Below are positions 2 through 29,818 of a stretch of 49,818 nucleotides of DNA, piece after piece (position 1 is the stretch's first letter; the number at the start of each line of letters is the position of its first letter). Made by a program: the position numbers and the translations under genes. Under the pieces are notes generated by a model. The model saw nothing but the letters and a program-made list of their open reading frames with translations, had not been told where the DNA came from and made no database searches. Source of the DNA: Candidatus Hikarchaeia archaeon HikBin5 (GTDB taxonomy: Archaea; Halobacteriota; Halobacteria; Halobacteriales; Hikarchaeaceae). The DNA lies in assembly GCA_009889625.1 (NCBI GenBank), contig WTZU01000007.1, positions 1 to 49,818 of the forward strand, in the 5' to 3' direction.

Positions 2-76
2 AGCGCGATAGGATAGCCAGGATATTCCGCCGGGCTCATAACCCGGAGATCGGTGATTCAAATTCACCTCGCGCTA
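2..76 (+). tRNA. Initiator tRNA-Met (anticodon CAT)
   Basis: A full cloverleaf can be drawn. The acceptor arm is 2-8 paired with 69-75, the anticodon stem is 30-34 with 42-46, the loop is 35-41 with CAT at 37-39, and the T arm is 52-56 with 64-68. The anticodon stem carries three consecutive G:C pairs next to the loop, and the first acceptor pair is A:U. Both are hallmarks of archaeal initiator tRNA rather than elongator tRNA-Met. The discriminator base is A at 76. No intron and no encoded CCA are seen. The tRNA starts translation by pairing with AUG in the ribosomal P site. Confidence 0.95.
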
Positions 77-86
77 TATTTTAACT

Positions 87-1025
87 CTATTCTTTCCCCG
101 CCCATTTCGCTAACAAAAGTGTTCCTTCAAACAATATTACCATCGTAAAAGCAACAATTAGCGGCGCCATGCCTGTAGGATCTGGACTAAAAATAAAAGA
201 TAATCCCAAGAAACCTCCCCAGAACAAAATTCTTCTTTTTATTAACCACCTTCTAGTCACAATTCCCATCAACAATGCTAACATAACAAAAATAGGTATT
301 TGGAATACAATCGCTAGGTACCCCATTAAAACTAGTATTAGGTTAAATGTCTGGCCGAGCCCAAAACCTATCGTTGCTATTCCCTCTGAATAATATAAAA
401 AATACGTAAAAATAATGGGTAATACAATAAAATAAGCAAAACTCACTCCTACTATTGCAAGAACTAAACTTGTCGGTATGGCTGCCAAATAATATCTACG
501 TTCGTGTTCATATAACCCCGGACGCATGAATGCATATGTTTGCCACACTCCTATGGGCAATGCGATGATCAACCCTACTAAACTGGCTACCTTGAACTCT
601 GTGAATTTGAGTTCTAATATTCCATACAATCTGGGCCTAGTAACATCACTAACTGGAAGGATGGAGTCCCATAAAAAATTAATAATTCCATCCGCAAAAG
701 GAAATGTAATGACGCTCACCAATCCTGCAACCCCTGCAACAATAGCCAAACGTTTTATCAATTCTCCTATGTGATCTACTATTGGTAACTCTCTATCATC
801 TCTTGGTCCTTTTTTTACACCATCCAACCCGTCTAAAATATCACCTTCTCGCATTAATTCTGCAGACTCAACTTTGATTTTCGACGCCAGATCTTCACTC
901 ACACCAGAAACAGCAGAAAGATCCTTTATTGACGCTACCCGCAAAGCCTCAATAGTACCAAAACCCGCTTCTTCAAGCGCTTTGGCTTTTACTTTTCCAA
1001 TTCCAGGTATGTCTGTCAATTTCAT
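87..1025 (-). CDS. tatC: Sec-independent translocase TatC with N-terminal helix-hairpin-helix domain
   Basis: TatC is the membrane receptor of the twin-arginine translocase, which exports folded proteins. From about residue 80 the protein has the TatC signature DHIGELIKRL followed by six hydrophobic segments and the conserved F-SPDPT stretch near the end. The first ~60 residues are different: LTDIPGIGKVKAKALEEAG followed by a second similar unit reads as a helix-hairpin-helix pair of the Rad51/DNA-repair type. The reading frame is continuous from an ATG, so the fusion is seen directly, although a start at Met58 (MREGDILDG) would remove it. The gene is divergent from a second, double-length tatC, as the TatCo/TatCt pair is in haloarchaea. 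The role of the HhH part is unknown. Confidence 0.9.
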   Translation of the reverse strand: MKLTDIPGIGKVKAKALEEAGFGTIEALRVASIKDLSAVSGVSEDLASKIKVESAELMREGDILDGLDGVKKGPRDDRELPIVDHIGELIKRLAIVAGVAGLVSVITFPFADGIINFLWDSILPVSDVTRPRLYGILELKFTEFKVASLVGLIIALPIGVWQTYAFMRPGLYEHERRYYLAAIPTSLVLAIVGVSFAYFIVLPIIFTYFLYYSEGIATIGFGLGQTFNLILVLMGYLAIVFQIPIFVMLALLMGIVTRRWLIKRRILFWGGFLGLSFIFSPDPTGMAPLIVAFTMVILFEGTLLLAKWAGKE

Positions 1026-1140
1026 TTTTTGAAAGGGCGTTTTGCCTCTACATGATCTTTAAGTAGGGTAACTGGTATAGACCTTTTTGTAGAGATGCAT
1101 ACCGATAAGGTTGTCCTCGAGAAAGAAATATCACAATAAG
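1026..1140. promoter_or_regulatory. Divergent promoter region between the two tatC genes
   Basis: This 115-base spacer separates two genes transcribed away from each other, so it must hold both promoters unless one is silent. An A/T-rich TATA-like stretch lies at 1058-1066 on the plus strand. It is too far from the ATG at 1141 for a leaderless transcript but would fit a leader of about 50 bases. No operator palindrome is obvious. Confidence 0.35.
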
Positions 1141-3330
1141 ATGAGTGTTAGCGACTTCTTCAACCCCGATGCACGCCGCACATTCGATAAAGGTAAGCAG
1201 ACGGCATCAGATATGCTCACTGCCGCCAAATCCAAATTACGCCGAGTGTTTCTGGTTTTTGTTGTTTGCCTTTTGGCAACCATTTATGCTATGCGTCTCT
1301 GGATCTGGCCTGCTTTAAAACAAGATCTACTCTCTCGAGGCGCGGACGTAATCGTATTAACACCTTTCGACGTTATCCTGCTACAAGCTAAGATAGGTAT
1401 TCTCCTCGGCGTTATATTTTGCATTCCCTTTTTCTTATATTATTCTCGAGATGCTCTCAAAACTCGCGGATTCTATCCTCAAACAGAAATTAAAATCTGG
1501 AAATTGGCTGCAATGGGGTCCTTATCCACTTTTCTCTTCTTTGGAGGTATTGCATACTCCTATCGAATTTTTTTCCCACTAATGTTTGATTTTCTCGCAT
1601 ACAATGCCGTAAGTGCAGGCCTTTCTCCTACATATTCCATCGTAGAATGGACTCAATTCATTTTCGTCCTCGGTTTCGCATTTGGCATAGCGGCACAGTT
1701 GCCTCTAGTTATGACTACTTTATCTTACACCGAAATTATCCCCTATGAAACATTTAGAGACAAATGGAAATACGCCGTTCTAGGAATGTTTGCATTTGGG
1801 GCCATATTTTCTCCACCCGATCCATTTACTCAAATTTTATGGGCTGCACCGTTAGTGGTGTTGTATGGATTCAGCCTTTATTTATCAAAAATAACAGTTT
1901 CATTTCGTAGAGGAAAAGATAATATTGATATAGCCAAAACCGCACGGGAACAATCTAAATTCATTTTACCAACAATCATCCTGACTGGAGTTATCAGTTA
2001 TTGGCTTTCTGCCACCGGGGTGACTCAAATCTTTGTGCTACTGGGGCAGATCGAACGTTTCATCAGTCCAAATCTCACTGCAACTTCATACCTTTTCGTT
2101 AATCAATCTTGGGAAGTCAGCATAGTTTCACCATTTATATTCTCTTTATTTATTGGCATTTTATCTGGATTTTTATTACTATTGTATTATTCTATACCCG
2201 AATTAGAACCCAATGCAATTTTCGGCGATCCCACCGAAATCGATCTAGAATCTCTTGACGTTGAAGGTCTTCAAAGAGCGCCACCCGAGGCCATCCTCCA
2301 ATTAACAGAAGAAAAGGGACTTGCCATGGCGTCTAGAGCAATAAAAGCCGGGGACGCAGAAAAAGCCCAAGCCATCTTAAGAGCAGTTGATTCAGCAAAG
2401 AACATGCGTGCTGTAGACATGCTATATCATTTTGATGAAGACGAGTGGAACCGGATCAAAAAAGAGAGGATGGAAGAAAAAAGAAGAAAAACATTCGAAG
2501 GTTCTTTCAAACGAGCAACAGCCGGAATTGTGAATTCAGTCTCCGAAAAACAAGTTGGAGAAGAAGAAATAGGTGGTTATGCATATGATTTGGCCTTTTT
2601 ATTTGACACATTAAGATCCAAAACTTTTAGAATTTTTGGAGTATTCATAACCGTCTTAGTAAGTGTTTTCACATTTCTCTACACGGGTGGAATCGGACGG
2701 ATAAAAAATGATTTCCTTAGACGTCTACCCGATTTAGTCCAACCTGAAGAAGTCAGCGTCATCACTCTCCATCCTGTAGAAGCACTCATTTTTGAAATCA
2801 AAATTGCAACCTTATTGGGTCTTGTCGCGACATTACCGTGTGCTCTATATTACCTATGGCCTGCTTTTAAGAAACGTGGTATAATCAAAGGTGACCGGAA
2901 TGTTGCATTTAGCTGGGCCGGGGCAATAACTATGGGACTCATTTTTGGCAGTGCATTGGGATATCTGTACGTGGCCCCCGCATTCGTTTCATATTTTGTT
3001 TATGATGGTATTCGGGCAAATATGCTTGTAACTTATAGGGTGTCTAATTTCTTTTGGCTTATTTTCTTTTGCACAGTTGGTATCGGCCTCTGGATCGATA
3101 TCATCGTCACCATGATAATGTTCCACCGAGCAAAATTAATTTCTTATGCCACCATGCATTCCCATTGGCGTAGTGTAACCGTTGGCATTCTTGTCCTCTC
3201 TGCGGTATTTACCCCACCTAGCGTTGTAACTATGGTTCTAGTTACTCTTCCTATCATGATAGCATATGGTATTGGATTGGCAATATTGTGGTTTTACAAC
3301 AAAGTCAAGCCATTTGAAAATCCTCTGTAA
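1141..3330 (+). CDS. tatC: Double-length TatC (TatCt-type, two fused TatC domains)
   Basis: Two complete TatC-like membrane domains sit in one chain. The first is roughly residues 30-270 and ends with a SPPDPFTQILW stretch. The second is roughly 490-729 and ends with FTPPSVVTMV. Two further hydrophobic segments follow the first domain, then a soluble charged linker of ~120 residues. This arrangement, about 14 membrane spans, is the TatCt architecture known from haloarchaea, where Tat is the main export route. I use the ATG at 1141 because the protein then begins MSVSDFFNPDARRTFDKG, which resembles the start of haloarchaeal TatCt from memory. A TTG at 1111 in frame is an alternative. The linker has no motif I recognise. 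Confidence 0.9.
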   Translation: MSVSDFFNPDARRTFDKGKQTASDMLTAAKSKLRRVFLVFVVCLLATIYAMRLWIWPALKQDLLSRGADVIVLTPFDVILLQAKIGILLGVIFCIPFFLYYSRDALKTRGFYPQTEIKIWKLAAMGSLSTFLFFGGIAYSYRIFFPLMFDFLAYNAVSAGLSPTYSIVEWTQFIFVLGFAFGIAAQLPLVMTTLSYTEIIPYETFRDKWKYAVLGMFAFGAIFSPPDPFTQILWAAPLVVLYGFSLYLSKITVSFRRGKDNIDIAKTAREQSKFILPTIILTGVISYWLSATGVTQIFVLLGQIERFISPNLTATSYLFVNQSWEVSIVSPFIFSLFIGILSGFLLLLYYSIPELEPNAIFGDPTEIDLESLDVEGLQRAPPEAILQLTEEKGLAMASRAIKAGDAEKAQAILRAVDSAKNMRAVDMLYHFDEDEWNRIKKERMEEKRRKTFEGSFKRATAGIVNSVSEKQVGEEEIGGYAYDLAFLFDTLRSKTFRIFGVFITVLVSVFTFLYTGGIGRIKNDFLRRLPDLVQPEEVSVITLHPVEALIFEIKIATLLGLVATLPCALYYLWPAFKKRGIIKGDRNVAFSWAGAITMGLIFGSALGYLYVAPAFVSYFVYDGIRANMLVTYRVSNFFWLIFFCTVGIGLWIDIIVTMIMFHRAKLISYATMHSHWRSVTVGILVLSAVFTPPSVVTMVLVTLPIMIAYGIGLAILWFYNKVKPFENPL

Positions 3331-29006: not shown

Positions 29007-29056
29007 ATTAAACCAAAAAACAATACTTGATATTTGTTTACCTCAAAAAGCAATCA

Positions 29057-29818
29057 ATGCGAAGAAGAGAACTTCTACTGGGCTTGGCATTTACATTATC
29101 TGGGTGCTTGAATGCAGATTCAAAAAACAGATATGGCCCAGATGTAGATCTTTCTGATGGCTATCCTCCTCTCCCTCGTCAAATGCCTTCTAAAAAATTC
29201 TTTGACCCCAGCACTTTCGATGTGGCACTGGTCGACTCTCAAATCATCCCACTCGCTCCTCTCGATATTGTTTCCAATTGGCATGCAAGAGGGGAAGCAA
29301 GATTTGTCGATTCTAGATCTCAAACCCAATATGAAAGATCACATATTCTTGGCTCTGTACTGAGCCCGGCACCATCTGGGATCGGTCCCACTGACCCAAC
29401 TACCGATTGGCCTAAAAATGATAGAATTGTGACATATTGTGGATGTCCACTTCACCTTTCTAGTCTAAGGGCAGCTAGCCTATTGAATTCTGGGTTCACG
29501 AATGTTTACGTGCTCAAAGAAGGATTTTGGGAATGGCATGAGAAACAGTATCCTTTGTCTGGATATGATAAAAAATTAGCACCAAATTCCTGGACAATCA
29601 CTGGAAAAACTGATCCTTCTTTTTCTGGGAAAACAGTTTGGATTCGGGAGTTACAATCAGGACAAGTGGAAGCGGCAATGATTCAACAAAATGGGGAATT
29701 CATATCTGAGATACGGTTCTCCAATATTTCTCTCAATACCCTTATCTCAATAGAAGTATCCGAAAGGATTGTCATAAGACCTCTCTCTTCTCTAATTGAA
29801 ACAACGATTGAAATCTAG
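29057..29818 (+). CDS. Tat-exported rhodanese-domain lipoprotein
   Basis: The ATG at 29057 gives MRRRELLLGLAFTLSGC: a twin-arginine motif, a hydrophobic stretch and a lipobox (LSGC), the haloarchaeal Tat lipoprotein pattern. The rhodanese domain follows at about residues 70-165, with HARGEARFVDSRSQTQYERSHI and the active loop TYCGCPLHLSS, where cysteines can carry sulfane sulfur, then LLNSGFTNVYVLKEGFWEW. The last ~75 residues hold beta strands of unknown role. An upstream in-frame start at 29027 would bury the signal. It probably handles sulfur or redox chemistry outside the membrane. Confidence 0.85.
   Translation: MRRRELLLGLAFTLSGCLNADSKNRYGPDVDLSDGYPPLPRQMPSKKFFDPSTFDVALVDSQIIPLAPLDIVSNWHARGEARFVDSRSQTQYERSHILGSVLSPAPSGIGPTDPTTDWPKNDRIVTYCGCPLHLSSLRAASLLNSGFTNVYVLKEGFWEWHEKQYPLSGYDKKLAPNSWTITGKTDPSFSGKTVWIRELQSGQVEAAMIQQNGEFISEIRFSNISLNTLISIEVSERIVIRPLSSLIETTIEI

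Follow-up and report, generated by a model that had tools for sequence, protein, structure and literature searches.

Tat transport handles folded proteins, and we know of no Tat receptor that carries a nucleic-acid- or ribosome-type domain. Helix-hairpin-helix (HhH) domains such as NusA AR2 and the C-terminal domain (CTD) of the RNA polymerase alpha subunit are protein-docking modules of transcription complexes. The Tat pathway is the predominant secretion route of halophilic archaea (PMC2910488). In Haloferax, RNA polymerase (RNAP) subunits and ribosomal proteins co-purify, and association of RNAP with the ribosome has been described (PMC8576121). In the bacterial expressome, the emerging transcript aligns with the ribosomal helicase, of which the ribosomal protein uS3 forms a part (PMC8116511).

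The stretch of DNA analysed here (the window; 49,818 nucleotides of contig WTZU01000007.1) belongs to HikBin5, a genome of Marine Group IV (MG-IV, Hikarchaeia), which are uncultured ocean archaea. Close to one end it encodes a TatC with an N-terminal HhH domain, and our analysis confirmed that this is a genuine fusion in Marine Group IV. The locus contains the following features (evidence in parentheses).

87..1025, minus strand: HhH-TatC fusion gene, 312 amino acids, ATG start (ORF; orthologues in three same-genus MAGs)
867..1022, minus strand: HHH_5 domain, residues 2-53, nearest to the eL32/uS3 copies (Pfam; AlphaFold pLDDT about 82-93)
963..1013, minus strand: first HhH motif, DIPGIGKVKAKALEEAG; P7, G8 and G10 are invariant in the four MG-IV TatCs (alignment)
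873..917, minus strand: second HhH motif, SAVSGVSEDLASKIK (alignment)
777..866, minus strand: variable linker, residues 54-83, cytosolic by TatC homology (low pLDDT in 61-80; dN/dS)
150..776, minus strand: TatC core, residues 84-292 (Pfam, Foldseek)
1026..1140, no strand: short intergenic region between the divergent tatC and tatCt, mostly conserved within the genus
1141..3330, plus strand: tandem double TatC (TatCt-type) with two TatC domains and without HhH; the start is the ATG of the relatives (Pfam)

A tRNA-Met gene (window 2-76) lies directly past the 3′ end of the fusion gene; on that side the other same-genus loci have a different, protein-coding neighbour.

The HHH_5 profile of Pfam (PF14520) matched residues 2-53 with E=5.2e-14 (52.9 bits against a cut-off of 27), and the TatC profile (PF00902) matched residues 84-292 with E=1.4e-42. 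A profile search of the N-terminus had been proposed as a check in the preliminary description, and its match was clear. That description had read the region as tandem HhH units; both motifs are present, but together they make up one two-motif HHH_5 domain. The top non-TatC matches among the NCBIfam models were eL32 (PRK12766) and RadA, each through the first ~58 residues. When the N-terminal 80 residues were compared with solved structures, eL32 of 1jj2 was best (E=2.5e-8) and Rad51/RadA came next. No RadA/Rad51-type ATPase domain was found by Pfam in the 312-residue ORF. Across the genus the GxG of the first hairpin is invariant (4/4), and that of the second is degenerate in two of the four proteins, its second Gly being Ser here and in one relative and Gly in the two others.

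The rest of the protein is an otherwise ordinary TatC, as had been noted, by its Pfam E-value and by its structural matches. The positions of the signal-peptide site are kept: F166 aligns with F94 of E. coli TatC and E175-R176-R177 with E103-R105, F94 and E103 being key residues of that site. Q242 occupies the place of E. coli TatC E170. TatA is present in the three other same-genus MAGs and was not found in this 70%-complete genome. A predicted protein encoded further along (window 29027-29818) begins like a twin-arginine lipoprotein (MRRRELLLGLAFTLSGC), continues with an apparent rhodanese-like domain, and is a possible Tat substrate.

An AlphaFold model of the fusion, built on a 41-row alignment, gave a mean pLDDT of 84.7, with a confidently predicted HhH lobe joined by a flexible linker to the body of TatC. 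Ten-residue blocks scored 82-93 in residues 1-60 and fell to 47-51 in residues 61-80, where the linker lies; the GVKKGPRDDRE segment of the preliminary description is present as written, and its suggested flexibility agrees with these values. The helices of the N-terminal lobe span residues 11-19, 25-30, 33-37 and 44-67. Foldseek ranked TatC structures at the top, followed by RadA/Rad51 N-terminal domains and NusA AR2. The body matched TatC structures 4b4a and 4hts with a target-normalised TM of about 0.8, and superposition of the lobe on the N-terminal domains of RadA/Rad51 gave about 0.9-2 Å (rmsd 0.9-1.1 Å over 57 columns for RadA). By homology with other TatCs, the N-terminus on which the predicted HhH sits with its flexible linker faces the cytosol. 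The Pfam E-value, the AlphaFold model and the Foldseek matches ruled out that the HhH is a chance similarity.

The fusion is carried by all four genomes of the genus (in one of them, G003, the copy is divided by a contig end); the three besides HikBin5 are Marine Group IV archaeon HikBin4 and Halobacteriales archaea ALOHA_A2.5_47 and PW3.metabat2.160. For the survey of TatC homologues that had been proposed earlier, residues 1-130 were used as the query against samples of 394 genomes each for the order and the phylum, which overlap and whose species coverage is incomplete. Among the matches listed for the order, full-length ones came only from the four Marine Group IV genomes. In the phylum sample, where this genome alone represents the genus, its own gene was the only full-length match among those listed. 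Haloarchaeal TatCs among the matches listed mostly align from about residue 50-75 onward. None of 26 haloarchaeal TatC N-termini that were read carried an HhH, these being variable, mostly acidic low-complexity tails instead, and a scan with an HhH profile around about 45 non-MG-IV TatC genes found none on TatC. Within the samples searched, HhH-TatC is restricted to Marine Group IV. TatC and TatCt are likewise paired divergently at nearly every haloarchaeal locus examined, and this conserved arrangement supports orthology of the fusion with haloarchaeal TatC. Both domains are well known; of their combination no report was found in the open-access literature (most subscription journals lie outside that scope). 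A literature search for L32e with HhH found nothing relevant, and TatC does not come up in the main text of the genome paper on the Hikarchaeia.

Comparison of the four MAGs provided information on the translation start and on selection. Met1 is conserved and the HhH is free of indels in all four. The dN/dS ratio (NG86) of the HhH is 0.19-0.33, several-fold above that of the TatC core, which is 0.02-0.05 in informative pairs and 0.20 in the closest pair, where changes are few. Values for the linker are mostly 0.26-0.73, with one pair saturated. Given the conserved start, the absence of indels and these ratios, the HhH behaves, as judged from substitution patterns, as a translated protein domain under purifying selection, and the linker as relaxed.

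By sequence comparison the TatC HhH was shown to be closest to the eL32 and uS3 HhH of the same genus and less like RadA. Its nearest non-TatC relatives there are the C-terminal HhH of uS3 (65% identity) and the N-terminal HhH of eL32 (59-66%); haloarchaeal eL32 mostly gives 37-48% and RadA of the genus about 36%. The label of a DNA-binding-type domain, given to it at first, is not supported as its main description, since the closest sequences are ribosomal (59-65%) and the net charge of the TatC HhH is 0 to -5. This charge does not favour nonspecific DNA binding, though an acidic character is also found in the RadA and eL32 relatives, which are adapted to salt. In a 35-row domain tree, the HhH of MG-IV TatC, uS3, eL32 (first unit) and Rpo1C grouped at 99/98, and a second sampling (54 columns) left the deep order and the donor unsettled. 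The HhH was likely acquired in a single event that preceded the divergence of these MG-IV species, with a ribosomal HhH of the eL32 type as its source. We infer the direction from eL32 to the other carriers because eL32 bears an HhH in haloarchaea too and, as judged by ORF length and similarity, in other lineages of the phylum. RadA as donor has lower identity than eL32/uS3, though the tree does not reject it (AU tests on only 54 columns gave p=0.33 for a grouping with RadA). A third candidate was a gene that some haloarchaea have immediately downstream of tatC, which we read as encoding a MutS-like protein with an N-terminal HhH and which adjoins tatC at five loci. It was rejected as a likely donor, its HhH being of a different subtype, on a long separate branch and on the wrong side of the gene.

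TatC is not the only protein of the genus with such a domain. MG-IV eL32 has two HhH units, MG-IV uS3 has one at its C-terminus after an acidic tail, and MG-IV Rpo1C (RNA polymerase A'') has one in the C-terminal ~55 residues of a long ORF at three loci. The HhH bearers identified in the genus are proteins of RNAP, the ribosome or TatC, besides RadA, UvrC, helicase/nuclease-like and radical-SAM-like proteins. Nearly all haloarchaea examined differ: all but one of the 21 haloarchaeal uS3 tails that were read are acidic and have no HhH, and the 23 haloarchaeal matches to Rpo1C all leave its HhH uncovered. Because of these kindred modules on uS3 and Rpo1C, the TatC HhH is, on its sequence relationships, best described as one among several grafts specific to this lineage. 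A C-terminal HhH on uS3 behind an acidic tail also occurs in a single haloarchaeal family (three genomes), and this copy groups apart from those of MG-IV, so that grafting onto uS3 apparently happened more than once. Within MG-IV, uS3 and eL32 share one gene cluster and have near-identical HhH copies. In one genome (G002) the DNA of the uS3 HhH and of the first eL32 unit (L034:5719-5880 and L034:1591-1752) is 95% identical over 168 bases, which looks like a recent duplication or gene conversion between the two. Contigs break within this shared stretch in two other genomes (G000 and G003) and just before it in the remaining one (G001).

We tentatively read the protein as the MG-IV orthologue of the single-domain haloarchaeal TatC, with an HhH from an eL32-type source that would serve as a cytosolic docking arm for gene-expression machinery, and put the probability of this reading at roughly 40%. 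Its linker of some 25-30 residues would let the HhH reach from the Tat receptor into the cytosol. There it could bind rRNA or mRNA, or else a second HhH-bearing protein of the ribosome or of RNAP, and docking would keep the translating machinery, or newly released Tat substrates, close to the translocon. A ribosome or transcription complex is the putative target because kindred HhH domains sit on uS3, eL32 and Rpo1C. The association of RNAP with ribosomes in Haloferax and the weight of Tat in haloarchaeal secretion also speak for this reading. The earlier suggestion that the HhH might dock another protein, bind nucleic acid or represent a small repurposed fold is in line with it. Several points count against a docking arm for ribosomes or other gene-expression machinery: Tat substrates are folded, so the known mechanism does not require ribosome docking; HhH domains with two motifs occur widely and have varied uses; the dN/dS of the HhH exceeds that of the core; and the tree leaves the donor unsettled. 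A module copied as readily as that of uS3 and eL32, near-identical within one cluster, may moreover owe its grafting to mutation and not to function.

This last point leads to the most serious rival, namely that an easily copied HhH replaced or capped a dispensable acidic N-terminal tail and needs only to fold and stay soluble, with no dedicated partner. The tails in question, at the N-terminus of haloarchaeal TatC and the C-terminus of uS3, are acidic and highly variable, and the uS3 HhH was placed at the end of just such a tail. The almost identical DNA of the uS3/eL32 copies, the faster evolution of the HhH relative to the core and the separate uS3 graft in one haloarchaeal family also fit a passive origin. 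Retention in all four species, the invariant hairpin residues and a dN/dS well under 1 speak for constraint, however, and recruitment to gene-expression machines was repeated. On balance we regard a partnerless graft as somewhat unlikely.

Less probable again is a generic tether, in which the HhH would bind DNA or any RNA and hold the Tat receptor near the nucleoid, with no specific link to ribosome or RNAP. Such a role would suit the likeness in sequence and structure to the HhH of RadA/Rad51 N-termini and of UvrC and ligase, as well as the first GxG hairpin, intact in every TatC of the genus. It sits poorly with the neutral to acidic charge, with a second hairpin that is degenerate in two members, and with nearest sequences that are ribosomal and not repair copies. 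Doubtful, too, is the proposal that the shared HhH is a common adhesive on Rpo1C, uS3/eL32 and the Tat receptor that links transcription, translation and the export of folded proteins. We consider a role within the translocase, for instance in TatC-TatCt assembly or in gating of the signal-peptide site that adjoins the TatC N-terminus, a little less probable still: the HhH lies ahead of the cytosolic segment with which TatC begins, the gene of the TatCt partner is adjacent and NusA-AR2-like HhH domains bind proteins, but haloarchaeal TatC/TatCt pairs do without an HhH, and the kindred uS3 and Rpo1C domains would be left unexplained. A start at Met58, raised in the preliminary description and making the upstream HhH frame an accident, is barely credible and was rejected: this genome has a Met codon there, but the three relatives have Val or Ala at that position, one of them with a Met at 57, whereas Met1 is conserved, the upstream part lacks indels and is under purifying selection, and the HHH_5 match has E=5e-14.

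With related HhH domains on TatC, uS3, eL32 and Rpo1C, this genus is a natural test case for a physical coupling of archaeal gene expression to protein export and for the ways in which essential machines acquire small modules. Compared with known systems, the MG-IV TatC resembles haloarchaeal TatC with its divergent TatCt in its core (mostly 52-65% identical, 39-45% in the most distant families) and in its neighbour, and differs at the N-terminus, where the haloarchaeal protein has an acidic low-complexity tail and the MG-IV protein an HhH. The archaeal eL32 N-terminal HhH (PRK12766 family) is the same HHH_5, and eL32 of 1jj2 is the best solved relative by sequence, but the domain sits on a ribosomal protein there and on a membrane receptor here. 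The RadA/Rad51 N-terminal HhH superposes in fold within about 1-2 Å; it is attached to a recombinase, and in MG-IV its identity of about 36% is under that of the eL32/uS3 copies. NusA AR2 and the alpha CTD share a similar compact two-HhH fold (6ib8) with weak sequence matches, but are bacterial, of low sequence identity and not borne by a translocase.
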